IMG/VR virus record: IMGVR_UViG_3300009496_000053
Coordinates: 1-27,969 of that record
Source of the DNA: a virus
Direction: 5' to 3' (one strand)
DNA: 27,969 nt
Below, piece after piece: positions 4,098 to 27,969 of the stretch. Position numbers and translations under genes: made by a program. The notes under the pieces are model-generated. The model worked only from the letters and a program-made list of their open reading frames with translations. It searched no databases and was not told the DNA's origin. The first letter of the stretch is position 1. Each line of letters begins with the position of its first letter.

Positions 4098-4346
4098 TTA
4101 ATCCCGAGAATTCAGCTTTTCTAAAATTAATCTCAACGAGTCTTTTATATCTGTGACTTCATCTTTTAATGTATTTATATCATTCTCACATTCAAGAATT
4201 TTCTGATTCTTTTTAATTCTTTTTTGCTTTATTTTTTTATATTCTGCTAATGAAGAACTGTCTATATTGACGATTGCCTTAGAATTAGTTTCTCGGGCAA
4301 TCGTCTTATCGTCTTCAACACGTACAAACTTATTTATAGTCATCAT
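4098..4346 (-). CDS. small coiled-coil protein of unknown function
   Basis: An 82-residue basic protein. Residues 1-35 are a short beta-type segment (NKFVRVEDDKTIARETN), and residues about 36-80 form a continuous charged helix with heptad-like spacing (KKIKQKRIKKNQKILE, then NDINTLKDEVTDIKDSL), a likely coiled coil. The first ATG overlaps the stop of the giant structural gene (TAATG), and a second in-frame ATG follows directly and is better spaced from the upstream AGG. Its place in the fibre gene block suggests a connector or oligomerising structural protein, which is inference. Confidence 0.65.
   Translation of the reverse strand: MMTINKFVRVEDDKTIARETNSKAIVNIDSSSLAEYKKIKQKRIKKNQKILECENDINTLKDEVTDIKDSLRLILEKLNSRD
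4172..4179 (-). promoter_or_regulatory. TATAAATA octamer 80 bases before the short fibre-type gene
   Basis: It lies in the coiled-coil gene (DINT codons), 78 bases upstream of ATG 4093. It is a candidate for separate late expression of the fibre block. Confidence 0.35.
4331..4338 (-). promoter_or_regulatory. TATAAATA octamer at the start of the coiled-coil gene
   Basis: It overlaps codons 4-6 (I-N-K) of the 82-residue gene, so it cannot serve that gene from its own start. It could serve the fibre genes 240 bases downstream. Confidence 0.25.
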
Positions 4347-7300
4347 TATACCTGTAGTGCGTATGCTCTGAGCGTCTTAGTTTTAGGAAGAATTGCTCGG
4401 TTGCTACTTAAGTGTACTATCTTTATAGCAAACTGCTTGAAAGATTTATATGTGACAGTTGATGTGGTAGCAGTTCCTAGAGATCCTGCTACTGTTTCGC
4501 CTCCAGTACCTGGTACTATCTGTGCATTGACATTGCCTGCAGAATAATATCTTCCAGGATTAGTAATTCTAATCTCAGAGATTGTATTACCATTCATTAT
4601 TGCTTCAGCAGAAGCTCCATATCCAACACCAGCATTATCAGTTATCTTAATGATCGGAGCAGATACATATGTTCCACCCGTAACTACTGGAATAGAGGCA
4701 ACTCTCGTAACATCATATTCGAAAATTCCAGTTGTGCTATCAACTCCCCATGTGCCAGTAGATTTTTCTGGAATCTTATAAGAGTATTCTGCAAAACCAG
4801 TAGTCGCAATAAACGGAGATGTTTCTACTTCTAGTTTTCTCCAATAGACATCGCTTTCAAATTCCCCGTCATCTTCAGCATTTTGTAGTTTAGCATAAAC
4901 TTCAACCGCTGCATTAGAAGGAATAGCATTATCTAAGAATATCTTCAAGTCTTCTGCATCTTGTCCTTCTGCAAGAACAACTTTTCTTGATATATACTTA
5001 GATTGAGCATTGCCGCCACTGCGAATTTCTTCTTCTGTTGAAGTATTGTTTATGTTATTTGCAATTGCTAACATGTCAAGTGCAGCCAAATCTAGAATTG
5101 GACTTACATTGTTAGAAGTTGTACTTAACGTAAACTGTAGTCTAGCAGTTTTCTCACCGTCTCTAGCTATTTCATTTGAATAGCTATATACAGTCTTCAC
5201 TTCTGGAAGCTCTACTGTTGTTTGTAATACAGCATCAGACAATGTAGTGTTTGCAGTAAGTTCATCTTTCTTGGTTAAAGCAATCTTAGAAGAAAGAGTT
5301 CCAATTTGATCTGGATTGATTGCGTGATACTGTACGCAATGAGCAGTAAGGTCTCTATCTTCAATCGTAGAAATCTTAGTATAAGTCACGCCGTTACCAA
5401 CAAGGTCTCCGACAACAAAACTTCCACTAGTCACTTCTAATTCGTAAGAAGTGACTAGTTTGTCATAACGACTAACTTTTGCACGATTGAGAGACAATGA
5501 AACCGTTGCAGCAGTTGTTGGATCACCAGAAGTTAGCGCCACTGTAGGAGCTGAAGTATATCCTGATCCTGGATTAGTCAAAGTAATTGCAGTGACTGCT
5601 CCTCCAGAAACCGTATATGTTCCGGCAGCATTAGAGCCATTAGTTCCAGTATTAGTAAACACTAAATTATAAGTGCCATCAGTTGCATAAGAGCCTGCAC
5701 TGTTTATGGTAGCTTTAAATCCGTGTACAAAATCTGCTACTGGGAAATAACTCGGAGGCGTCAAAAATGTGCCATCCTCTGTTATAAAGTCTGTAACAGC
5801 AGTCGGCGTACGATCCCACTCATCTGCATCAAATTTAATCCAATCAATATTTTTGTTCACTGTGTTTACAATGTAATTTTGATTGACTTCAAATTTAGCT
5901 CGTCTTACAACAAACATTAAATCTTCATCTTGATGTGCAGACCAAGTTCTGTTATTTGCAGATGTAAATAGAACACCAGAATGTGTCTGTTCTGTTATAA
6001 CCTCAGTAGAACCTTTTCTAATCTCACCTAGTTTGCCGAGCCAAGCCTCGTAACCACGATCATTTGCATCTGGCTTGAGTACCATACAATACTCAGTGTT
6101 ATTTTGTAAATGTACTGGACCACTAAATTTAAAGTTAGTAGAATTGAATGTTACCTTTCCAGAACTATCTTCAGTAGACACTAAACACTCTGATCTTGTT
6201 TTATGGCTTTCTGCAATTATTGTTGATCCTGGCACACCATTTATCATTTCTCTGATCTGTAGAGTAATGCCGTTATTATTTTCCTCTGATGATTTATTTC
6301 TAAAGAAAACATCAGCAGAAGTAATAAACATTCCTCCTTCCATTCCTTCGACATAGAATGACTGTGCTAATGGATCTTGTGCAAAACTTCCTGGTCCAGC
6401 TTCTGCACAGAATAAATCTGGTATTGAAAAATCAAAGTCTAGTGCAGCAAGTGCTTCTAAATCTATGTTAAGATCAGTTATATTAGTTACAGAAGTAGCA
6501 TTAGGAACATTAATTACTTCAACATCTTCGGTCACATCTTTATTTGTAGTTGAAGTTGTCAGTCTTACATTAGATTCTCCTAAACTGCTTGCTGTCGCAC
6601 TTGTATTTACAGAAGGAGAAGTCTCATCAGCATCTCCATGAGTATAAACAGATGCGTCAATAGTTTGAACTGTTCCTGTGGCAGTGTCTATAGTAGCAGA
6701 ATCATCAACGAGAATTACTTGTTGAGTTTCAACTTGAACTGTGCTGGTATTAGTTGTATCTACATCGATATAAACTTTTGCTTGTTCTTTAACAGAAGGA
6801 GGCGCTTGATTTTGCAAATAATCATTGTAAGTAGCACAACCAGGATCAGCCATTTCAACGCCATATCTACTACCATCAGCTCGCTCAAGAACTGCTTTTG
6901 ATATACCAGTGGTTAAATCTTGAAGAGAATCAGGAACGCCACACGTAACGCCAAGAACCGTATCACTAACGTCTAGTTGTTCAATTGGAACTCTATTTGC
7001 ACGAACTAAAGAATCGCCCGCTAGAGTTTGAGTTTGCACCCAAGGATCTTGAATGCCAGTTGTGAACTTGACTTGTTCTATTTTTTTGTCTATATCAGTC
7101 GCTGTCCTGTCATCATATGTTCTACTTCGTACTTCTCTGTCGCCTATTGCTGATGCTGGCCTAGGCTTTCTAGTAGTCAAGTTTGTTATAACAGTTCTTT
7201 CTACTGAATGATTGGCATAAAAATAGCCATAGGTAGAAGAATCGGCCTGAGAAATATCATTATGATTTGTGATCTCAATCTTAATTCCCTCTTCCCGATT

Positions 7301-10300
7301 ATATCTTTCACCTGCTCCCCAATTAACCTGCGTAACAAGTCTTCCAGCGCCATTAGTAGTGCTTGTTCCGTATCTGGCGCTATCAACTAAAATAGTATGA
7401 AGAGTGTTAGGCTTAAGACCCCATGCTGAAATGTAAACAGTTTCTGATCTTGCAAATGTTTCTACTGGAATAGGTATGTTTTCTTCAAGAGATTCTGATC
7501 CATTCCACACATAGTCTGCTTCTCTATAGTCCCATACAGTAGAAGATTTTGGATTTATTGCAGATGGATTTGTCCATACAACATCGTACTCTGGCACGTA
7601 TAGTCCGCCGTCACCAGTCTCTACTGTGTTGTTTGGATCTGCGGAAAGTCCAAAGTTTTGTCCTGGATCTTGACCACCAATAGTACTGGTCGCAAATTCC
7701 CAGTTAGACCATTGTAAATTCCAGCCAGAATTATTTAAGGCTGTATCCAACCCTCTCAATAAATGATCGTATTCTCCGTTATCATTCTGAAGAGGTTGGC
7801 CTGCAACTCTATCATCTATAAAGTTAGCAACCGGCGGGTCAATTTGACAGCCTCCTGACCAAGGACCAGTTGCTACTGGTGTGCTTATTGGAGTAGTAGA
7901 GGTATCATTAATTGTCACTGAAGTACTTGCTGTTATTCCTGTACCAGAAAGAGTAATAGTCCAAGTTTCAGGGCTTTCAGTAGTTAAATCTTCTGCGATA
8001 GTAACCTGTAAGAAAGCGCAACCGGTTGCGTCTACAGTAAGAGTTCCTGTTCCATTTGCGGCTGTTGTTGGTACAGTACTATAGTCAGCAGCAATAATGC
8101 CGCCAGTAGTATCAGTGCCTGCAACTTGTGAAATCGTGTATCCTACCACTGTGCCTGTGGGCACATTAGTAGTCTCTAATGTTATGGTAAATGTATCGCC
8201 TTCATTTGCTACTGACTTTGATCTAAGCAAGTGATATGTAGGTGAAGTTGCCGTTGTACCACGATCACTTGCTCCAGTATCATTAGTTGAAGAACCTGTC
8301 TCTGTCTGATCTTGCCCTGTGCCATCATTATTTGTAGCAGTTTCTTCTGCTTCTTGTTCTGTAGCAGCAGGCGGAGTTATGAACAATTCACCCACAACAT
8401 TTCGATAAGAACTAGCTTGAGTTTGCTGTGTATAAATTGCTTCATTGTAAGGAACATGCCAGAAATATCCAGACTGACCAGCAGTAGTTCCAGTTGCTAT
8501 TGGCTTGAATCCTATTTGAGAAGTAGTGAACGCTGCCCTCAACTCTCTCTTTCTAACATCAATAGAACACTTGTTATCTGGACTACTGACATTATTAACT
8601 CCAAAGTTGGAGAAAGAGTCAACTAGATAACCGTTTTTATATCTGTCTATACCGTCAGAGTCGGGTATTATTACTTTTCCTGCTTCTTTTTCTAGCAAAG
8701 TGAGTGTAGTATAATACTCCAAATTTGATATTCTTTGCTCAAGCGCACCAATATCCTTCATTGTATATTTTTTGTTCTTCACAGGAACAATTGTCATTGA
8801 CAAATCTTCTCGACCAGCAATCTTTCCTGCTAACTGTGACAAACATGGATACGGAGGTAAATAACCGGTAGCCAGAGTCATTGCTCCTTCCGGTGAAGGA
8901 GGCATCTTAGGCGCAATAGAAGGAATGCCTTTAAGGATTTTAATATCTCTAGAAGGAGTAACAACTACTCTGTATGCTTCAGCTAAATAAAATTCTAAAT
9001 CTGTTGTAAATGTCGCTGAAGGAATAGGATTAGTAAGTCCTCCACCAGGACGATCAATTCTCTCAAAAGAACTTGGGTTAATAGGAGCTGCCGCTGCTGT
9101 TGCTCCAGGAGTTTCTGTTGACTCCATGAAAGGTCTAAAGTCAATGGCATTTCTCAAATCAAATACTTTACTAGATGACCTAGAAACATACAAAGGAATT
9201 TCTTCTGTTCGAATTCCAGTTGCACCAGTATCATCAACAGGATATGAATCTATGCAAGCAAAAGTTGGGCCGTCAATTGTGCCGTTGTCAAAGTAATCAA
9301 ATTCTACTGTAATATATTTTTCAGCAGTGAGGTCTATTGTGCTGCTAGATTTCTTTTCGATATAAGATAAGCCGTAGAAATTATCTCTTTGTCCATTATC
9401 TACATTAAACAAGTCTGAGACATTTCTAGCACCAGTAGTATAATCTGCGTTTGTTGTAGCTGTAATTCTTGTTACTCTAAATACGTCAGGTACACCGAGA
9501 CAGAATCTATTATTAGCAAAGTTTTCATTTGTATCTGCTTGTATTTTGACATATTTTGTTTTGACTAGGCTCTTAGTGATAGGAGCATCGTCAGAAACTT
9601 GCATATTGACATAGACTCTAACTTCAAAAGGAGCTCCTCCTATTGGGTTCAATTGTGTGCCTAAATCAATAGTCAAAGAAGTCTCGCTGGTTTGTGTTAC
9701 CTTACCAGTGAGATCAATAAATTCTCCTTTTTCTATCGTAGTACCGTCTATATCAAAAGATTCTCTTGCTACTAATTTAATATGACTAGCGACATTAGAT
9801 TCCGATACTGATCCATTGCCAAAAAAGAAAGTATGATCTGCGGCATCTGGTGCAAGATTTATTACACCATTACTGTCTGCAATTTTATCATATTCTTTAA
9901 TAAATTTAAAATTATATCCGTAAATTCCACCAGTGGCTGCTTGTAAAGTTTTTAGATGTTTGTACGGCAAATTCCAAACAAGTTTATTTGAATTCTTTTC
10001 ATAAACCTGTGCATCGCCTGCTTCGTTTAGTACGATGTCTGCGAAGGCATTTGCTTCGGAATTTTCGTAAGAAATACATCGAACTTCGCTAAAATCACCA
10101 CCAAACATTTTTATATCAAACAAATATAGCTTGAATTCAGCGGCAGCAGTTCCAGGTGTGCCAGAGGACAGTGCAATATGTCTAATTTTTGCAGTGCCTA
10201 TAATGTTTCCTGGTACAGAAGTATTAGAATACGCCCCCCCAGAAACGCCATTTGCTGGATTAGTGCTGTGTAAATTTACAATACCATTTGCGCTAGAATC

Positions 10301-11554
10301 TGCTCCGTCCGTATCCCATACACCGCATACGTCATTGACAATTACATAATTACCAAATGTTGTTGATTGTGATACAGTTTGTTCTATTTGAGTTGCACTT
10401 GGCTTGTTAAAAACTGATTCATTGTCTGCTAAAAGCTCTACAGGATAACCAGCAACACTTCCTAATCCAGCCTTCACGCCCAGAATAAGTTTATTAGCAT
10501 CTCCTCCCGCCGCACTTGGAAGCTGACCTCCATTTCTTGCTCCAGCAGAACGTAAATGCTCTTTAAAGTAAACTTGCATTCCTTTTGAAACATAATTGCC
10601 GTGTCGATCAAATGTTTCTCTGGCCAGAATTTTTCTAATTCCGCCTAAAGGGTCTGTTTCTATTTTAGCTCTTGTAATTTTTCCGTTAGAGTATGTTGCA
10701 ATCTGAAAATAATTATCTGCTGGTGAAGAATCTCTGTTATAAGATATTAATGATACAGTATTTTGCAATCTATCTGCACCAGGAGCTCCCTCATTAAAAG
10801 TTCCTCTAGCGTTGTCGTATAGAGTACCATCAACAGACGCTTGTTTGACAGATTGATTTACTAAGAATCCTATTTTTTTATCTGTATAAGGACTAAAGCT
10901 ATCAATAAAAACAGAGAGATTTTTAGTTCGAATGAAATTGCCAAGAGCATAAATTATGCCAGGAGACATAGTTAAATGAGGAGCTACGCCTGCATAAAAA
11001 TCTCTCTTACCAAAAGTTCCACTGGATGTAGTTTGAGTAACAAAGGTTTTTCCTTTTATATTCGTGTTTACAGATTCTACTGTTAGTGTTTCCCCTTGAT
11101 TAAATCTTTTGTATTGATTAGTTGTTAAATCTGCGTTCTGACCATTCTCGTCTATGTAAACAATGTACAATGCTTTTGTGTTAATTGTATCGCTGACTGT
11201 AATTTGTCCAGTCTTGTGTGTAATAATTCTTGCCCTTAGTCCAGTAGTGGCTCCAACTACAACTGCATTGTCATATGAAGCTAGATCAGCATTAGCAATA
11301 GGATCTTCATTAGCATCGTCATCGATAATTTTAACGAAACTAAAGTTTTCAATTTTTTGCTCGCAGCCACTAATGACTGCACCTTCTTTAAGACTAAAAC
11401 TACCTAATTGTGATAATTGATCGGAAAGAACTGTTTGAAGCTGAGTTAATTCTCTAGCTTGAACAGCAACACCTGGCTTAAAAAGTACCCGATGGTAATT
11501 CTTTTGAGGATCAAAATCATCATAATAAGGTGAAGAATTTAAATTAAGGGCCAT
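4346..11554 (-). CDS. giant baseplate/tail structural protein, DUF4815-like
   Basis: A 2402-residue virion protein. The N-terminus (YYDDFDPQKNYHRVLFKPG, then QARELTQLQ) is typical of the DUF4815 structural proteins of marine T4-like phages, as is the AIDFRPF segment near residue 805. An acidic Thr-rich linker (about residues 1060-1100) leads into a Calx-beta-like domain (about 1100-1220; SVANEGDTFTITLETT). Near residue 1720 comes a jelly-roll-like module (DPLAQSFYVEG). Two GGxGY-type modules lie at about 5500-5625 and 4500-4715. The end (FKQFAIKIVHLSSN, then LRAYAL) resembles the conserved C-terminus of the family. The ATG follows an AGGA site. It lies after gp8, where T4 has gp9 to gp12, so it probably forms a peripheral baseplate or fibre-attachment element. 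Its exact position in the particle is not known to me. Confidence 0.8.
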   Translation of the reverse strand: MALNLNSSPYYDDFDPQKNYHRVLFKPGVAVQARELTQLQTVLSDQLSQLGSFSLKEGAVISGCEQKIENFSFVKIIDDDANEDPIANADLASYDNAVVVGATTGLRARIITHKTGQITVSDTINTKALYIVYIDENGQNADLTTNQYKRFNQGETLTVESVNTNIKGKTFVTQTTSSGTFGKRDFYAGVAPHLTMSPGIIYALGNFIRTKNLSVFIDSFSPYTDKKIGFLVNQSVKQASVDGTLYDNARGTFNEGAPGADRLQNTVSLISYNRDSSPADNYFQIATYSNGKITRAKIETDPLGGIRKILARETFDRHGNYVSKGMQVYFKEHLRSAGARNGGQLPSAAGGDANKLILGVKAGLGSVAGYPVELLADNESVFNKPSATQIEQTVSQSTTFGNYVIVNDVCGVWDTDGADSSANGIVNLHSTNPANGVSGGAYSNTSVPGNIIGTAKIRHIALSSGTPGTAAAEFKLYLFDIKMFGGDFSEVRCISYENSEANAFADIVLNEAGDAQVYEKNSNKLVWNLPYKHLKTLQAATGGIYGYNFKFIKEYDKIADSNGVINLAPDAADHTFFFGNGSVSESNVASHIKLVARESFDIDGTTIEKGEFIDLTGKVTQTSETSLTIDLGTQLNPIGGAPFEVRVYVNMQVSDDAPITKSLVKTKYVKIQADTNENFANNRFCLGVPDVFRVTRITATTNADYTTGARNVSDLFNVDNGQRDNFYGLSYIEKKSSSTIDLTAEKYITVEFDYFDNGTIDGPTFACIDSYPVDDTGATGIRTEEIPLYVSRSSSKVFDLRNAIDFRPFMESTETPGATAAAAPINPSSFERIDRPGGGLTNPIPSATFTTDLEFYLAEAYRVVVTPSRDIKILKGIPSIAPKMPPSPEGAMTLATGYLPPYPCLSQLAGKIAGREDLSMTIVPVKNKKYTMKDIGALEQRISNLEYYTTLTLLEKEAGKVIIPDSDGIDRYKNGYLVDSFSNFGVNNVSSPDNKCSIDVRKRELRAAFTTSQIGFKPIATGTTAGQSGYFWHVPYNEAIYTQQTQASSYRNVVGELFITPPAATEQEAEETATNNDGTGQDQTETGSSTNDTGASDRGTTATSPTYHLLRSKSVANEGDTFTITLETTNVPTGTVVGYTISQVAGTDTTGGIIAADYSTVPTTAANGTGTLTVDATGCAFLQVTIAEDLTTESPETWTITLSGTGITASTSVTINDTSTTPISTPVATGPWSGGCQIDPPVANFIDDRVAGQPLQNDNGEYDHLLRGLDTALNNSGWNLQWSNWEFATSTIGGQDPGQNFGLSADPNNTVETGDGGLYVPEYDVVWTNPSAINPKSSTVWDYREADYVWNGSESLEENIPIPVETFARSETVYISAWGLKPNTLHTILVDSARYGTSTTNGAGRLVTQVNWGAGERYNREEGIKIEITNHNDISQADSSTYGYFYANHSVERTVITNLTTRKPRPASAIGDREVRSRTYDDRTATDIDKKIEQVKFTTGIQDPWVQTQTLAGDSLVRANRVPIEQLDVSDTVLGVTCGVPDSLQDLTTGISKAVLERADGSRYGVEMADPGCATYNDYLQNQAPPSVKEQAKVYIDVDTTNTSTVQVETQQVILVDDSATIDTATGTVQTIDASVYTHGDADETSPSVNTSATASSLGESNVRLTTSTTNKDVTEDVEVINVPNATSVTNITDLNIDLEALAALDFDFSIPDLFCAEAGPGSFAQDPLAQSFYVEGMEGGMFITSADVFFRNKSSEENNNGITLQIREMINGVPGSTIIAESHKTRSECLVSTEDSSGKVTFNSTNFKFSGPVHLQNNTEYCMVLKPDANDRGYEAWLGKLGEIRKGSTEVITEQTHSGVLFTSANNRTWSAHQDEDLMFVVRRAKFEVNQNYIVNTVNKNIDWIKFDADEWDRTPTAVTDFITEDGTFLTPPSYFPVADFVHGFKATINSAGSYATDGTYNLVFTNTGTNGSNAAGTYTVSGGAVTAITLTNPGSGYTSAPTVALTSGDPTTAATVSLSLNRAKVSRYDKLVTSYELEVTSGSFVVGDLVGNGVTYTKISTIEDRDLTAHCVQYHAINPDQIGTLSSKIALTKKDELTANTTLSDAVLQTTVELPEVKTVYSYSNEIARDGEKTARLQFTLSTTSNNVSPILDLAALDMLAIANNINNTSTEEEIRSGGNAQSKYISRKVVLAEGQDAEDLKIFLDNAIPSNAAVEVYAKLQNAEDDGEFESDVYWRKLEVETSPFIATTGFAEYSYKIPEKSTGTWGVDSTTGIFEYDVTRVASIPVVTGGTYVSAPIIKITDNAGVGYGASAEAIMNGNTISEIRITNPGRYYSAGNVNAQIVPGTGGETVAGSLGTATTSTVTYKSFKQFAIKIVHLSSNRAILPKTKTLRAYALQV
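7890..8260 (-). other. Calx-beta-like domain within the giant structural protein
   Basis: This segment encodes about 120 residues with the Calx-beta-type pattern: NEGDTFTITLETTNVP at the start, a central strand pair, then TTESPETWTITLSG before INDTS. The preceding 40 residues are an Asp/Glu/Thr/Gly-rich linker. Such domains bind calcium in adhesion proteins. Here I see only the fold-type pattern, not proof of calcium binding. Confidence 0.55.
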
Positions 11555-22310: not shown

Positions 22311-22913
22311 TTATTTCGCCATCAAACTCTTGTAACTTGTAACAAACTGTGCCAAAAACTCTGGCTTCAATACAAATATTTGTCTCTTCTTTTCGTTCTC
22401 TGAAATCTCAAAATCTAAATTTGATACTGCTTTTATTGTTCCAGCAGCAATTGCAGCTACATCATAATCTACAATAATAGGGGAATCTGATGGATCTACA
22501 GGAACTGCTTGTATATCTCTTGCCGCCAATTTTGCAGCATCATAATCAACAATTATGGTACTATCGTCTGCTAATGCATAACGATACGCCAATATATAAT
22601 GGTGATCTTTCAACGCATTACCTTGACCATACTTTGATTCAGTATACTCAAAAAGTAATGCTTGATTCTTAGGCCACTCTTCATTTACGTTTACAATATC
22701 ATTGACAGTCAATATGACCCAATGATATTTTGGTGTGCTATAGAAGTTGTTAGCCAACATCTCAGGAGTTTCGCCGTCTTTAACATAGTAAGCATTAACA
22801 GCTAACTTGCTGTTTATTCTTCTATCGATACCAACTCTTCTAAAAATATCCTTAGTTAATATCGTTTTTTCATTTGTCTTATATGATATTCTTGGCATTG
22901 CTTTGAAAAACAT
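22311..22913 (-). CDS. 53: baseplate wedge protein gp53
   Basis: A 200-residue protein. The core MPRISYKTNE, FRRVGIDRRI, YYVKDGETPEMLANNFYSTP and YHWVILTVNDI is characteristic of gp53, whose N-terminal region is LysM-like. The C-terminus ends in a helix, KPEFLAQFVTSYKSLM. Between residues 119 and 166 a segment, IIVDYDAAKLAARDIQAV, is repeated as IIVDYDVAAIAAGTIKAV. T4 gp53 (196 residues) has a similar length, so this region is not simply extra. ATG 22913 overlaps the gp48 stop (TAATG). A second ATG at 22898 (MPRIS) is the conserved-looking N-terminus but has no ribosome binding site. gp53 binds the inner wedge core near gp48 and gp27. Confidence 0.87.
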   Translation of the reverse strand: MFFKAMPRISYKTNEKTILTKDIFRRVGIDRRINSKLAVNAYYVKDGETPEMLANNFYSTPKYHWVILTVNDIVNVNEEWPKNQALLFEYTESKYGQGNALKDHHYILAYRYALADDSTIIVDYDAAKLAARDIQAVPVDPSDSPIIVDYDVAAIAAGTIKAVSNLDFEISENEKKRQIFVLKPEFLAQFVTSYKSLMAK

Positions 22914-24154
22914 TAGAATCCGTCCGCTATTCTGTTGTTAGTGAGAGTTTCAAGTTCGGTGAATGCTAACTCTAAATTAATTTCAGCCGGTGCGCCTTGA
23001 GTATTTTTAAAGGTAGTGAATGCATCTTGATTACCATATGTTACCTTTATATCAGTCAACGCACATTGAGATATCTTATTTAGATGTTCGTTTCTATTTC
23101 CATTATAACAATATTCTATTTCAAATTCAGAAGGATATTCTAAGAACAAACCAGTAGGATCATTTTCTGGATGCATATGATATTTAAATAGATCAATAAT
23201 TCTTCTCACATTATCATATTCTGTTTTGTTTCTAGGCGCAAATTTGTAATTGAATGCGAATTGACGAAAGCCCATGCTAGTAAACAATTGTTCTTTATAT
23301 GGATTAGCTACCTTACCAGAAGCTAAATCTAAAGATGCTCCTAAGTCACCGCTTAATCCAAAAGCAGCCGGTACTTGTGCCGCCGCTTTTATTGCACCTC
23401 TTATACCCAACTCTCCAACGCCTGTGCCTTTGTCGAGAAGGCTTTCCATGCTGAACTCTGAGCTTGTTAGCCCTGCGAGGGCTCCTAGTTCTTTGTTTTC
23501 CCAGTTTGCACTGTATCTAGCTACAGGAGGTTGTGATATGTGTAAGTTAATTTGTCCTAAGGTTCTAACTGTTCTAACAGATTCAATTACAGCAGCGCCC
23601 ATTCCTGCGCCTAAACCAGCGCCAGCAAACCCTGAAAAAAATGTACCAGCATTACTTCCTTTCCCCGCTAAAGAAACTCCAAGAGCTGCTCCTGCTACTC
23701 CAGAAGTTAGTATTGAAATAACACGAGCTTGGTCTGCTGAAAGATTATTTTGCTCAGTTTTATCTACTGCCTCTAATTCAAAAACAGGTCCTTGCCAGTC
23801 TCTCTCCATTGTCTGCAACGCTCGTTTATCTTGATTTTGCGCTGTAGCTGCTCGACTATTCTCTCTAGCCAAGATAGTGAATCGTATACTATGAAGTTGT
23901 TCTGGATTTTTTGAATCTCGTTCGCCCACTTTCAAAGGATATTCGAAAGAAGTCGCAGAATTAAAGACATATTTTTTTAGATTGTCTCTATCTCTCTGAG
24001 AGATGTCTGATAGTTCTTCAGTATCATGGTCGTTTTTTCCATCGAATAATGTGTCCGCATCGGGTACGTACCTTTGTCTGAGCGAGGCTATGTCTTGCTC
24101 GGTTGGGTTGGCACCGGTTGCTCTGATCGCTGCGAGTTCTGATTCAAATGACAT
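22913..24154 (-). CDS. 48: baseplate tail tube cap gp48
   Basis: A 413-residue protein (T4 gp48 is 364). The C-terminal third is characteristic: NPYKEQLFTSMGFRQFAFNY, FAPRNKTEYDNVRRIIDLFK, HPENDPTGLFLEYPSEFEIE, then a final EINLELAFTELETLT strand. Residues about 145-190 are a glycine-rich hydrophobic run (ILTSGVAGAALGVSL, then GFAGAGLGAGMGAAV) that reads like a glycine-zipper helix hairpin. gp48 caps the hub and starts tube polymerisation. It has a strong AGGAA site 6 bases before ATG 24154 and a TATAAATA octamer 30 bases upstream, so it appears to open the baseplate operon. Confidence 0.8.
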   Translation of the reverse strand: MSFESELAAIRATGANPTEQDIASLRQRYVPDADTLFDGKNDHDTEELSDISQRDRDNLKKYVFNSATSFEYPLKVGERDSKNPEQLHSIRFTILARENSRAATAQNQDKRALQTMERDWQGPVFELEAVDKTEQNNLSADQARVISILTSGVAGAALGVSLAGKGSNAGTFFSGFAGAGLGAGMGAAVIESVRTVRTLGQINLHISQPPVARYSANWENKELGALAGLTSSEFSMESLLDKGTGVGELGIRGAIKAAAQVPAAFGLSGDLGASLDLASGKVANPYKEQLFTSMGFRQFAFNYKFAPRNKTEYDNVRRIIDLFKYHMHPENDPTGLFLEYPSEFEIEYCYNGNRNEHLNKISQCALTDIKVTYGNQDAFTTFKNTQGAPAEINLELAFTELETLTNNRIADGF

Positions 24155-24184: not shown

Positions 24185-24192
24185 TATTTATA
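24185..24192 (-). promoter_or_regulatory. candidate T4-type late promoter before gp48
   Basis: A perfect TATAAATA on the minus strand inside the 57-base gap between the GlcNAc-transferase-like gene and gp48. The expected transcript would start about 20-25 bases before the gp48 ATG and keep its AGGAA ribosome binding site. This is the best placed of the octamers in the window. Confidence 0.75.
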
Positions 24193-24211: not shown

Positions 24212-25159
24212 CTAATCTTCTGAGTCTGGAGTGCCAGTTGCTTTGGGATCTATTATTTGGCGAGTGAATGCCCTTTCTTCGATTATTCCGTTTATATAAT
24301 CGACACCAGAGTATTCATGATATTTCTTTAAATCTTCTTCAGAGATACTTTCAATAAACTTTTTCCAGTATTTCTGACCACGATTAGTAAGGGGAGCATA
24401 TTTGTCAGTGATTGGATCAACCCAATGCTTAGTAACATAATCGTGTGTTCCTACAAAATGAAAACAATGCATCTCTCTTTGATTAAAAAGAGACCAGCCA
24501 TTAATGAATGACTTCAATACCATATAGTGTTCTTCGCCGTCAAAAAATATTCTTGAATCGTATCCTATTTCATCGACCCAACGAGTAGGAGCAAAGAAAT
24601 TTCCTGCAAAGATATGTATAGCGGTTTCTACATCTTCGGTGCTATCAATGTGTTCACCATGAGCGGCAGGTCTTCTAATGCTTTTTTGAAATGTAAAGTA
24701 TCTTCCTCTGCTAGTTTTATGATGATTTGGATCATACATTTTAAATGGCTCACCATCTTCTAGTTTGAAGTTGTGACAAGCAGCAGTTAGAATGACTCTA
24801 GCATTTTTTGCTTTTTGTCTTCCCAATTCCCAATCTTGCAATAAATAACGATCCCAATTTTTGTTAAAGAGCATATGGGAATCTACTTGATAGATAAAAT
24901 CTTCGTCTTCAATGTGAGCAGCATTTATTTTTCTAGCCCAGACTACTCCATCTGCATACTCAGGATCTATTCTTTTGTATTTTACATTTCGATGGTTGAC
25001 TAGGTCTGGTTCAACTGTAACAAGACTGTCTTCAAGGCAAGTTTGCTCAAAGACTCCTATGGTTATTTCGTTATCATCAGAGCGTTCATCCAACAAACTT
25101 TGAATAGTATATTTCAATAAAGGATCACGAAAAGATACTACACTAACAAAAATTTTCAT
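24212..25159 (-). CDS. glycosyltransferase, Skp1 GlcNAc-transferase-like (GT60/PF11397 type)
   Basis: A 315-residue protein. The order of motifs fits the GlcNAc-transferase family that includes the Dictyostelium Skp1 hydroxyproline GlcNAc-transferase: IFVSVVSFRDPLLKYTIQSL at the N-terminus, EITIGVFEQ, ADGVVWARKINAA, FIYQVDSHMLFNKNWDRYLL with the D-S-H motif, then FFAPTRWVDEIGYDSRIFFD followed by GEEHYMV, and a late HCFHFVGTHDYV. Members transfer GlcNAc from UDP-GlcNAc to a hydroxylated proline. Here substrate and sugar are unproven. The ATG overlaps the stop of the upstream gene (ATGA), the last link in a chain of coupled genes that begins with a prolyl-hydroxylase-type enzyme. The domain call is from memory of family motifs. 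Confidence 0.72.
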   Translation of the reverse strand: MKIFVSVVSFRDPLLKYTIQSLLDERSDDNEITIGVFEQTCLEDSLVTVEPDLVNHRNVKYKRIDPEYADGVVWARKINAAHIEDEDFIYQVDSHMLFNKNWDRYLLQDWELGRQKAKNARVILTAACHNFKLEDGEPFKMYDPNHHKTSRGRYFTFQKSIRRPAAHGEHIDSTEDVETAIHIFAGNFFAPTRWVDEIGYDSRIFFDGEEHYMVLKSFINGWSLFNQREMHCFHFVGTHDYVTKHWVDPITDKYAPLTNRGQKYWKKFIESISEEDLKKYHEYSGVDYINGIIEERAFTRQIIDPKATGTPDSED

Positions 25160-25878
25160 TCTTTTTTGTCCAGGGTAAATAGTTTTTTAACAGAAAGAAA
25201 TTTTCTATAGTATTGACTATCTCCGCCAAGTATTGAATTTCTACTCTTATCGACTTGTTGTTCTGTGCCAGGCCCATATCCGCCTATTAAATCAGTATTT
25301 AAAAATGGTATGACATGTAACAAAGGTTCTCCTGCCTTTATATTTATCTCGCACTTTCTCTTTGGTGTACAAATTAGATTTGCTGTAGAAAAGTTTTTAT
25401 AGTCCACTACACCTGGCCATATATGCAAGTCATCAAAAACATCATTGTGATAAATTGCAGGAAGTATAAGAGCTGATATATTTTTACTAACAAAAATATT
25501 CCAAGGTGCACCTATGTGTAATACAGTGAGAGGAACATTGTCTTCTATTTTTATGATTCCTTCTACAATATTAGAATTCATTTTTCTTGGTTGTAAAAAG
25601 CCCCTAGCTCCTCGTTGTTTAGAACCTATAGTAGACACTACACCAGCTTTATTTGCTTTAATCTTTATGTCTACCCACGCAGGTATTACATATCCAAGTT
25701 TTGCATAGTCTGCCATACCAGGACAATGTGGAAAAATGTTTGTTCCTGTTTTTGCTATTCTAGCATCTTTTCCTATAACTTCTAAGTCTTTCGCTAAATG
25801 TACAGGAAAATCCAGATATGCGTTTCTAGATACATCAACAAACTCAATATCTTTTTTCTTTTTAAAAAATAAAGGCAT
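25156..25878 (-). CDS. hypothetical protein, paralogue of the upstream gene (DUF6065-like)
   Basis: A 240-residue protein with a Lys-rich start. It shares a clear pattern with the preceding gene: HCPGMADYAKLGYVIPAWVD against CMPMLDAMTLGYVIPLCGD, WPGVVDYKNF against LGGLVDTDTY, and IKAGEPLLHVIPFLNTD against LPAGTPLVVAIPVKRD. The pattern suggests a beta-sandwich or cupin-like fold, but I see no metal triad. I recall such phage proteins being placed in a family of unknown function (DUF6065), which I cannot confirm. ATG 25878 overlaps the upstream stop (TAATG), and its own stop overlaps the glycosyltransferase ATG. Confidence 0.65.
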   Translation of the reverse strand: MPLFFKKKKDIEFVDVSRNAYLDFPVHLAKDLEVIGKDARIAKTGTNIFPHCPGMADYAKLGYVIPAWVDIKIKANKAGVVSTIGSKQRGARGFLQPRKMNSNIVEGIIKIEDNVPLTVLHIGAPWNIFVSKNISALILPAIYHNDVFDDLHIWPGVVDYKNFSTANLICTPKRKCEINIKAGEPLLHVIPFLNTDLIGGYGPGTEQQVDKSRNSILGGDSQYYRKFLSVKKLFTLDKKE

Positions 25879-26606
25879 TATTTTCTTTTCTCTCTCAACT
25901 CATCAGTGTAAACACGAACTCTAGTATTTTGTTGTTTTCGAATGTCATCAATAGCTTTAAATTCTTTATCTGACATAGGTCTAACAGAACAGTCTCTATG
26001 AACAGAATCTCTTTTAACAGGAATTGCTACTACAAGAGGAGTTCCTGCTGGAAGATGACCGTCAAAATTTGGAGTATGCCAAACAGCAGGAAAATTTACC
26101 TCTTTTGGATAAGTATCTGTGTCTACTAATCCTCCTAAGCAAGTAAAGTGTGGATTCTGTAAGTTGTTATTCACAAGAGGCATGAACAGTGTACTCCATC
26201 CAGGAGCAGTCTTTACTACCCAATGATTTATAAACTTAACAGGAGGAGCTGGCATACCAGGAGCTTTTGGTCCTAACTGTTCTAGACTATGAAACTCTGC
26301 TAATTTGATTTGGGGTGGATTAAAGACTTCAATTTGTCTCAAATCCTCTGAAGACTTTAGTCCTAGGTCCCCACACAGAGGAATAACATAACCTAGTGTC
26401 ATAGCATCTAACATAGGCATACATTTTTTTGCAGTCATATTAGGTCTATTGACATTATCTTTTGACGGCATAGTAGGAGGTATACTTTTGAACCACTCTG
26501 GTACATGTTTGTTTGCAGATCGTGGCTCAGGTATTATTCCTTGAACACTAGGATGACAATAAAACTCTATGATAGGAGTTTCTTTTTTCTTCAAAAAATT
26601 AAACAT
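25878..26606 (-). CDS. hypothetical protein, first of a paralogous pair (DUF6065-like)
   Basis: A 242-residue protein starting MFNFLKKKE, with HVPEWFKSIPPTMPS near residue 40 (a PEWFK-x-P motif), LGYVIPLCGDLGLK near 73-86, a HWVVKTAPGWSTLFMPLVN segment, and LPAGTPLVVAIPVKRDS near 181-197. It contains several His and Cys, but no catalytic set I recognise. It resembles the next gene along most of its length, so the two arose by tandem duplication. It begins inside the stop of the hydroxylase gene (TAATG). Tight coupling with a hydroxylase and a glycosyltransferase suggests a shared task. The function is unknown. Confidence 0.65.
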   Translation of the reverse strand: MFNFLKKKETPIIEFYCHPSVQGIIPEPRSANKHVPEWFKSIPPTMPSKDNVNRPNMTAKKCMPMLDAMTLGYVIPLCGDLGLKSSEDLRQIEVFNPPQIKLAEFHSLEQLGPKAPGMPAPPVKFINHWVVKTAPGWSTLFMPLVNNNLQNPHFTCLGGLVDTDTYPKEVNFPAVWHTPNFDGHLPAGTPLVVAIPVKRDSVHRDCSVRPMSDKEFKAIDDIRKQQNTRVRVYTDELREKRK

Positions 26607-27199
26607 TATGATTCTCTAGGCCCAGTTACCCATGTAACCAGCGTGTTTCTTTCGCCAGAAGTTACTGAAGTGACTCTATGAGGCATCCAAGAGGCAAAGA
26701 AAAGTGCATCGCCCTTCTTTGGCCGAATAGTTTGAATTTCATCGAGATTGCCGTTGATGCAAATTTGAAAATCGCCGCCTTCATAATCTTCTGGATCGTT
26801 TAGCATAACGATTACAGATATTTTTCTTTGTTTAATTTGATATCCAAAGAAAACGTCCCAATGCCAAGTATAATGACCATCGAGTTCGTATTTGGTATAT
26901 TGCATAGGACCAAAATCATCTACATCATACATGAAATGATCTTTGTTGGCGGTTCCTATGAGGGATCCCATTTTTTGATACAACCAATTGGTGTTCTCAT
27001 CATGATTCATAAAAAAGACAGAAGAGTCCCTTGCCTTTTTCATGTCTTCAGGAGTCATCGTAGAAGAACCTACAATTCCTTGCTGAAAGGTTTGTAACTC
27101 TTCTATTTCTCTAATTTTTTCAACTTCCTCTGCACTGAAGGCCTGAATCATATGGGCATAGCATTGCAGAGTAGCATTATATTTTGCAATTTTTGGCAT
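26606..27199 (-). CDS. 2OG-Fe(II) oxygenase, prolyl-4-hydroxylase type
   Basis: A 197-residue enzyme with a complete facial triad: H113 and D115 in YTWHWDVFFG, H174 in WMPHRVTSVT, and the 2OG-binding R184 in SGERNTLVTW. The intervening SVIVMLNDPEDYEGGDFQI is the usual strand and turn pattern of the P4H-type PF13640-like fold. Enzymes of this type hydroxylate proline or other residues using Fe(II), O2 and 2-oxoglutarate. They are common in T4-like phages of marine bacteria. The ATG at 27199 has only a weak upstream AAGTGA. It starts 58 bases after the repeat protein ends, and its stop overlaps the next ATG (TAATG). A structural repeat protein as substrate is inference. Confidence 0.85.
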   Translation of the reverse strand: MPKIAKYNATLQCYAHMIQAFSAEEVEKIREIEELQTFQQGIVGSSTMTPEDMKKARDSSVFFMNHDENTNWLYQKMGSLIGTANKDHFMYDVDDFGPMQYTKYELDGHYTWHWDVFFGYQIKQRKISVIVMLNDPEDYEGGDFQICINGNLDEIQTIRPKKGDALFFASWMPHRVTSVTSGERNTLVTWVTGPRES

Positions 27200-27257
27200 A
27201 ATATTTTCACTTAAAGTATATTATAATACTACATTATATATGAGTATTTAAATCATG

Positions 27258-27969
27258 TCAACTACTTTTTATTGTAACCTCTCCACCGTCAGGAACATCT
27301 ACTGGATAAGTATTGTCATCTGGATAATCATAATATGATACCTCAGATGCAGATGTAAATGTTGCTTCGGTTCCGCCCACGTTCGATCCAGGCAAAGTAA
27401 CACCTAATGCAGTAGCGGGCTGACCTGGCTGAGCTGCGATAGGAGTATTATATGTCGCTACATTTCCTGATATCGGAGAATTATATGTTGCAGGAGTTCC
27501 TGCTATCGATGAGTTATATGTTGCTACTGTGCCTGCAACAGGCGCATTGTATGTAGAAGGATTTCCTCCAGACCCGGTGTTGTATGTTGCAGGATTACCA
27601 GCTATCTCTGAGTTATATGTTGCTATATTGCCAGCGACATCAGCATTATATGTCGCTGCTGTGCCAGGAACAGGCGCATTATATGTTGCAGGATTACCAG
27701 CTATCTCTGAGTTATATGTTGCAACAGTTCCGGGAGTAGGTGCATTATATGTTGCAGGAGTACCAGCTACCTCTGAGTTATATGTTGCAGGTGTGGATTC
27801 AATAGGCGAATTATAGCCTACAATTACCGGACCATAAGTAATCTCAGGAGAATAAAAAGGAGGATTATATGAAGCTACCGGGCCAGGAGTAGGTGAATTA
27901 TAGTTTGCTATAGGACCTGAATTGTAACCACTAATAGGTCCTGGAACAGGCGGATTATATGTCGCAGGA
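27258..27969 (-). CDS. Pro/Tyr/Asn repeat protein, likely structural (5' end outside window)
   Basis: A minus-strand frame open from the right edge to a TGA at 27258-27260 gives 236 visible residues. It has no start in the window. Residues begin with irregular Pro-rich units (PPVPGPISGYN, SPTPGPVASYN), then eleven tandem 11-residue units of the form ATYNSEVAGTP, and end in a non-repetitive acidic tail, SYYDYPDDNTYPVDVPDGGE, then VTIKSS. No hydrophobic segment is visible. The conserved residues are Thr, Tyr and Asn, with Pro in most units. The nearest downstream neighbour is a P4H-type hydroxylase, which makes it a candidate substrate. The regular beta-type repeat and neighbourhood suggest a fibre or decoration protein, but no named family is visible. 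Confidence 0.75.
   Translation of the reverse strand, partial: PATYNPPVPGPISGYNSGPIANYNSPTPGPVASYNPPFYSPEITYGPVIVGYNSPIESTPATYNSEVAGTPATYNAPTPGTVATYNSEIAGNPATYNAPVPGTAATYNADVAGNIATYNSEIAGNPATYNTGSGGNPSTYNAPVAGTVATYNSSIAGTPATYNSPISGNVATYNTPIAAQPGQPATALGVTLPGSNVGGTEATFTSASEVSYYDYPDDNTYPVDVPDGGEVTIKSS
27426..27788 (-). repeat. eleven tandem 33-bp repeats encoding ATYN 11-mers
   Basis: Exactly 11 units of 33 bases. Every unit begins (A/S)-T-Y-N and most end in Gly-x-Pro, Gly-x-Val or a variant. Units alternate in part between SE(I/V)AG and AP(V/T)PG forms, so a 66-base higher-order period is partly visible. Confidence 0.9.
27583..27722 (-). repeat. 41-bp exact direct repeat within the 33-bp array
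   Basis: Bases 27583-27623 recur without change at 27682-27722, an offset of 99 bases or three repeat units. This suggests duplication of a three-unit block. Confidence 0.85.

Follow-up and report, generated by a model that had tools for sequence, protein, structure and literature searches.

Hydroxylation of a protein followed by its glycosylation is a chemistry found chiefly in plants, amoebae and giant viruses, and the repeat proteins of bacteria and phages, collagen-like proteins included, are usually assumed to lack prolyl hydroxylation. Here we describe a locus in the virus record IMGVR_UViG_3300009496_000053, analysed as one stretch of 27,969 bases (the window). Upstream of the T4 gp48-type baseplate gene it encodes, in order of transcription, a repeat protein (REP), a 2-oxoglutarate (2OG)-Fe(II) oxygenase of the prolyl 4-hydroxylase (P4H) type (OX), two paralogous proteins (D1 and D2) and a glycosyltransferase (GT). 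We read these genes as a tail-protein modification cassette that would hydroxylate prolines of the neighbouring REP and then O-glycosylate it, a coupled scheme whose chemistry we infer and to which we give a probability of roughly 45%.

The Skp1 pathway of Dictyostelium and Toxoplasma (PhyA/PHYa, then Gnt1 of family GT60) resembles the cassette in pairing a soluble P4H-type dioxygenase with a GT60/PF11397 transferase; in both, the chemistry could take place in the cytosol, with no need for a secretory system. Skp1 is modified at one single proline (PMC11570480; PMC6939170). The cassette, unlike the Skp1 pathway, comprises a repeat protein and two extra dUTPase-like proteins, forms one operon and is viral; no downstream extension enzymes were seen in it. 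Mimivirus encodes its own collagens and enzymes that modify them, the R699 glucosyltransferase and related proteins (PMC9546862). What is modified there is the hydroxylysine of collagen, whereas the repeats of REP are almost without lysine, on which ground lysyl hydroxylation of REP is ruled out, and are not of the Gly-X-Y type. The window further differs from Mimivirus in representing a tailed phage of prokaryotes and in joining a P4H-type oxygenase to a GT60 enzyme, together with D1 and D2. A viral P4H is found in Paramecium bursaria chlorella virus-1 (structure 5c5t), a eukaryotic virus, and is matched over nearly its full length by the OX profile; no GT60 or DUF6065-like partner is known to be linked to it.

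The 2OG-oxygenase islands of cyanophages (S-CREM1, syn9 and P-TIM40) share with the window a D1-family protein beside 2OG oxygenases, downstream of glycine-rich tail proteins, and differ from it in having tryptophan halogenases and many divergent oxygenases, with no GT60 gene seen. Genes of these islands have been published as auxiliary, the halogenase acting on free tryptophan (PMC9964418). Collagen-like proteins of bacteria and viruses have been stated to be without prolyl hydroxylation (PMC3368898), and no published description of such a phage system was found in the literature searched, which covered few subscription journals. The cassette resembles viral collagen hydroxylation-glycosylation and the Skp1 pathway in kind; what is new about it are the substrate, the partner proteins, the range of hosts and the organisation as an operon.

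A recurrent cassette beside a repeat protein

We collected 227 loci, which fell into 63 groups after near-identity collapse; searches with profiles of OX, D1, D2 and GT showed the first three together in about 50 of these groups, mostly with GT as well. Clustering of OX at 70% identity gave 30 clusters, 28 of them with enough sequence for a downstream test and 27 for a test of REP. OX was followed by D1 in 26 of the 28, by D2 in 25 and by GT in 15, and a REP-type N-terminal domain lay upstream in 23 of the 27 clusters. One locus scored as a miss (L011; loci are cited by such numbers) has a REP that falls below the profile threshold, yet is recognisable by eye. Since the loci were recruited via the module itself, a reverse search seeded with the REP termini alone matters as a counter-test. 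It found OX, D1 and D2 at all 47 distinct REPs having at least 2.6 kb of downstream sequence, where REPs were called distinct by their last 80 residues, some are closely related and all come from one collection. The gene order still recurs at 37-47% identity, and the arrangement is therefore not due to chance. Mantel correlations between the module proteins (0.78-0.91) were set aside as proof of a module, because shared phage ancestry explains such high values.

The core unit is REP-OX-D1-D2, with GT as an optional add-on: D1 and D2 are steadier partners of OX than GT, which is absent from about half of the OX clusters. An earlier note on this DNA had placed the genes, counted eleven ATYN units in REP and described the junctions (TAATG at both OX/D1 and D1/D2, ATGA at D2/GT), all of it accurately, with the addition that REP is incomplete at its 5' end in the window. 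It had also proposed that the four downstream genes form one system tied to the repeat protein. The genes are indeed found linked to one another and to REP, but GT lies outside the invariant core, and a Sulfotransfer_2 gene is sometimes found. Such genes stand on either side of OX, after REP or before D1 (L139/L140, L182 and L012/L209 groups), with or without GT. A scheme of hydroxylation followed by conjugation would lead one to expect a hydroxylase accompanied by one or another enzyme that conjugates hydroxyl groups, although a tyrosine or a sugar might also be what is sulphated.

OX is duplicated in four lineages (L026, L028, L030 and L034), where GT overlaps or abuts the second OX rather than D1/D2, beside a REP-OX-D1-D2 unit. 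Where the contig reaches far enough, a second Pro-rich repeat gene stands upstream of the second OX. This layout speaks for OX and GT being a coupled pair, and for each OX being coupled to a REP of its own. The interval between REP and OX in the window contains a perfect TTGACA-17-TATAAT, and promoters scoring 11-12 of 12 occupy the same place in some lineages (L004, L005, L007, L035, L045, L054, L141 and others, not all), which suggests that production of the enzymes does not depend on expression of the structural genes. The T4-late-like TATAAATA precedes gp48, and such sites show a weak excess in the window (6 vs 3.1 expected).

Searches of cultured phages gave no match to the window by blastn, a single tblastn match to GT (XacN1, 22% identity, in an unrelated neighbourhood) and no full module. 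Viral contigs scanned with GT alone as a single-protein query also gave no match; the loci came from other queries and from alignments. The scan of genome contigs returned one match, a 4.4-kb contig (L227) with the whole module in a metagenome-assembled genome of Chitinophagaceae. DUF6065 and PF11397 are both rare in this phylum, and the contig is probably phage. No recognisable modification genes were seen in the neighbourhood of a cellular DUF6065 gene (L320). At one locus a single OX-D1-D2-GT cassette stands amid three 2OG oxygenases and is followed by a GPT repeat protein (L022:218-4449).

Oxygenase, glycosyltransferase and D-family proteins

OX matches PF13640 with an E-value of 3.4e-18. 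H113, D115 and R184 are invariant and H174 is conserved in at least 90% of 37 relatives, in line with the P4H-type assignment of the earlier note, which had listed these four residues as complete. Among P4H structures, the OX profile matches 5c5t (profile positions 14-189, E 9.6e-10), 5hv0 (E 3.4e-7) and 3itq, covering most of the domain. The PKHD-type hydroxylase PiuC outscores the P4Hs in the same search over its C-terminal half, so that P4H specificity is not settled by sequence. We consider it reasonably probable that OX hydroxylates REP.

GT scores 85.2 bits against PF11397 (cut-off 21, E 7.8e-24), and the 315-residue protein thus belongs to the GT60 family named earlier. D12, D93-S94-H95 and E209-E210 show no variation among 26 relatives, D-S-H being its conserved metal/donor motif of the GT-A fold. 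The structural model (predicted local distance difference test, pLDDT, 76) has a GT-A fold, and its nearest structures are polypeptide N-acetylgalactosaminyltransferases (GalNAc-transferases, GT27; Z 20.6, root mean square deviation 4.4 over 267 residues). These enzymes share with GT the fold and, on our reading, peptide acceptors, whereas they form a different sequence family with about 14% identity, and GT has no ricin-type lectin domain. Collagen LH3 is also among the structural matches; PDB sequence searches with GT gave none. We consider it equally probable that GT glycosylates REP. GT60 includes both the Skp1 hydroxyproline N-acetylglucosamine (GlcNAc)-transferase and a Trypanosoma cruzi polypeptide GlcNAc-transferase of the mucin pathway (PMC6939170; PMC8724618), and membership in it does not therefore imply a hydroxyproline acceptor. 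The suggestion of a Skp1-like hydroxylation and glycosylation agrees with the enzyme families and is otherwise an analogy, given the other acceptor of the T. cruzi enzyme. One GT60 enzyme (L207:10716-12284) carries a C-terminal extension resembling an S-adenosylmethionine-dependent methyltransferase (DIGAGSGNYGR).

D1 and D2 both match phrog_7084 and are paralogous, as had been noticed; the two are not wholly unknown proteins, however, as the earlier description had it. Pfam searches with the window proteins gave no convincing match to any family and none to DUF6065 (PF19541), relatives score below its cut-off of 26.6 (23.0 in L014, 23.6 in HF1), and the D1 homologue of L227 lies narrowly above it (27.9 bits). 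As judged from these comparisons, D1 and D2 are remote DUF6065 relatives. The D1 model (pLDDT 91) has a predicted dUTPase-like fold: all listed Foldseek matches are dUTPases or dCTP deaminases, with Z 9.6 and 3.3 A over 121 residues for a dUTPase. The family retains a G-L-V-D-T-D-x-Y segment (G-x-V-D), which we take to resemble dUTPase motif III. Pfam matches at E up to 1 included no dUTPase family, and for this reason dUTPase activity is not claimed. PDB sequence searches gave no match for D1, and no paper on DUF6065 was found in the literature searched.

D1 relatives also occur, at up to 36% identity, in haloarchaeal viruses of the Hafunaviridae, and in HF1 and HRTV-5 (L324) a protein with 24-25% glycine is encoded three genes from the D1 homologue, by tail genes. 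Cyanophages S-CREM1, syn9 and P-TIM40, like L015 and L016, have in order glycine-rich tail-region proteins, a small tail-fibre-assembly-like gene, one or more tryptophan halogenases, a D-family protein and a run of 2OG oxygenases (annotated as such or, for unannotated members, inferred). What the contexts of the D family have in common is thus a low-complexity tail-region protein rich in Gly or Pro. The cyanophage islands also suggest that the target of their "auxiliary" halogenase and oxygenases is a tail protein and not free metabolites.

The repeat protein and its proposed modification

The window REP has exactly 11 ATYN units plus ASYN/STYN variants, contains 14% proline and ends in the conserved 'ALGVTLPGSNVGG...YYDYPD..TYPV.VPDGGEVTI'. 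Relatives from complete open reading frames are mostly about 390-870 residues long, one full-length REP being L005:7794-9359. They share a short N-terminal domain (LEKTWRxxGTGTTTFNxxGNxxIPYGR....GRGGxGN) and a C-terminal one (LGVxFPGG...YPVxVPxGGQIVVKIE), between which lie fast-changing repeats such as TYNAPTPG, NGPQNFN, SYNTVPGN and NPFVPGN. Median proline content is 11.9% in the gene that directly precedes OX, vs 3.6% in 518 other neighbours (Mann-Whitney p 3e-22, nominal because related loci are not independent). Median repeat composition is 16.6% Asn, 13.6% Gly, 13.2% Pro and 11.9% Tyr, with about 10% Thr, about 7% Ser and almost no Lys or His. Every repeat region holds both Pro (7-31%) and Asn (never below 7%), and the commonest neighbours of Pro are Asn before it and Gly after it. 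The window-type repeats (ATYN, PVPGT etc.) show no Gly-X-Y periodicity and no Pfam Collagen match; such a match was seen only at the distant L014. The REP N-terminal profile strongly matches the glycine-rich protein of L014, a member of its own seed, and only weakly a glycine-rich protein of S-CREM1 (E 0.09). T4-type baseplate genes adjoin the cassette, and some modules lead straight into a tail-fibre assembly chaperone (L150); because of this position, REP may be a tail-fibre or tail-tip protein, and would be the modification substrate.

In the coupled scheme, OX would hydroxylate prolines within the low-complexity NP/PG/YNxP repeats and GT would then add a sugar to the repeat, GlcNAc by family precedent, most simply on the new hydroxyproline; a sulfotransferase may be the conjugating enzyme in other lineages. 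D1 and D2 would probably form a hetero-oligomeric factor, dUTPase-like but probably not a dUTPase, that binds REP or presents it to the enzymes, or aids its assembly; of this step we are least sure. In the window's clade, the sigma-70-like promoter of the modifying genes may allow the enzymes to precede the structural protein. The tail appendage would be expected to become stiffer, protease-resistant and hydrophilic, and surface glycans may serve host binding.

OX and GT could instead modify REP independently, OX acting on prolines and stabilising a polyproline-like repeat and GT acting directly on Thr, Ser or Tyr, mucin-style, without hydroxyproline. The T. cruzi enzyme within GT60, mucin-type GalNAc-transferases as the nearest folds, the abundance of these three residues (Tyr about 12%) and the many OX clusters without GT all fit such a division of labour. 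We nevertheless hold it to be rather unlikely: loci with GT and loci without it do not differ in Thr, Ser and Tyr contents, and GT adjoins the second OX in four lineages, as a coupled pair would. Asparagine, the commonest repeat residue, could be the target of OX, as of FIH and AspH, or aspartate could, in YN/GN/NP repeats, with the sugar placed there or elsewhere. This is quite improbable, since OX fits the P4H/PF13640 branch nearly full length, its profile matches include no FIH or AspH structure, and Pro is equally universal in the repeats.

A cassette merely sited in the tail-gene region might act on GPQ collagen-like neighbours, another virion protein or a host protein. Many loci (L010, L029, L045 and others) do have large GPQ genes after the module, and some lineages have the module under its own promoter, yet the loci most similar to the window showed no GPQ proteins, nor did several others, whereas REP adjoins OX in nearly all; with the module recovered 47 times in 47 by REP-only searches, a target other than REP is unlikely. 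DNA modification is a known role of phage 2OG oxygenases and glycosyltransferases, but no recognised DNA-modification genes lie nearby, peptide glycosyltransferases are the best match to the GT fold, and the pairing with a low-complexity protein is constant, so that OX and GT are very unlikely to make or decorate a small molecule, a base of DNA or a glycan of the cell surface. Several points weigh against the coupled scheme itself. The GPQ proteins might serve as substrates besides REP or in its place; the repeats contain Asn just as universally as Pro; and Pro, Thr and Ser contents are equal in GT-plus and GT-minus loci, hence composition does not identify the acceptor residue. One member of GT60 acts on a different acceptor, REP matched no annotated structural family, and no PF13640 oxygenase was found in HF1, so that D1 is not strictly a hydroxylase partner.

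Coordinates of the cassette, its surroundings and related features (window unless a locus is given)
Feature	Position	Strand	Description
REP	27258..27969	-	C-terminal part of Pro/Asn/Gly/Tyr/Thr repeat protein, 5' end open at window edge
OX	26606..27199	-	197 residues; 2OG-Fe(II) oxygenase, P4H type; PF13640, phrog_61; H113/D115/H174 + R184
D1	25878..26606	-	242 residues; phrog_7084; remote DUF6065 relative; predicted dUTPase-like fold
D2	25156..25878	-	240 residues; phrog_7084; D1 paralogue
GT	24212..25159	-	315 residues; PF11397 (CAZy GT60 type) glycosyltransferase; GT-A fold model
Sigma-70-like promoter	27233..27261	-	TTGACA-17-TATAAT, perfect; between REP and OX
TATAAATA	24185..24192	-	T4-late-promoter-like (suggestive only); between GT and baseplate genes
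Baseplate tail tube cap	22913..24154	-	T4 gp48/54 type; context gene
Baseplate wedge subunit	22311..22913	-	T4 gp53 type; context gene
Sulfotransfer_2	L140:8658-9365, L182:8637-9260, L209:7644-8336		within cassette
HF1 D1 homologue / Gly protein region	L002:7911-8801 and 9711-10748		
Cyanophage islands	L321:1307-13486, L323, L325, L015:4983-17331, L016:6986-15530		S-CREM1 (L321), syn9 (L323), P-TIM40 (L325)

The minus-strand T4-type baseplate cluster of the window includes gp48/54, gp53, hub-lysozyme and wedge-subunit families, and also a 2402-residue protein of unknown function (4346-11554, phrog_358/877). Very long GPQ collagen-like genes, possible further substrates, lie downstream of the cassette in L010:12928-17844, L031:11350-14607 and L045:11857-16272.

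Implications for tailed phages

Many uncultured tailed phages carry this cassette in the tail-gene region, where it probably modifies a Pro/Asn-rich repeat protein by hydroxyl groups and then sugars (or sulphate). More tentatively, the cassette may define a widespread phage class in which hydroxyproline-linked glycans (or sulphate) are placed on low-complexity tail proteins by a P4H, a GT60 enzyme or sulfotransferase, and a dUTPase-fold DUF6065-like pair as a new modification or assembly factor. Such a class would span phages of several bacteria, its D component occurring also in archaeal viruses. The case for novelty would be stronger if the D pair proves to be a new modification factor. If the scheme is true, hydroxyproline-based protein glycosylation would extend to tailed phages, and an explanation would be at hand for part of the many so far unexplained phage 2OG oxygenases, which are currently classed as auxiliary metabolic genes. 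DUF6065-type proteins would gain a role, and chemical modification would join the ways in which phages vary their tail tips.

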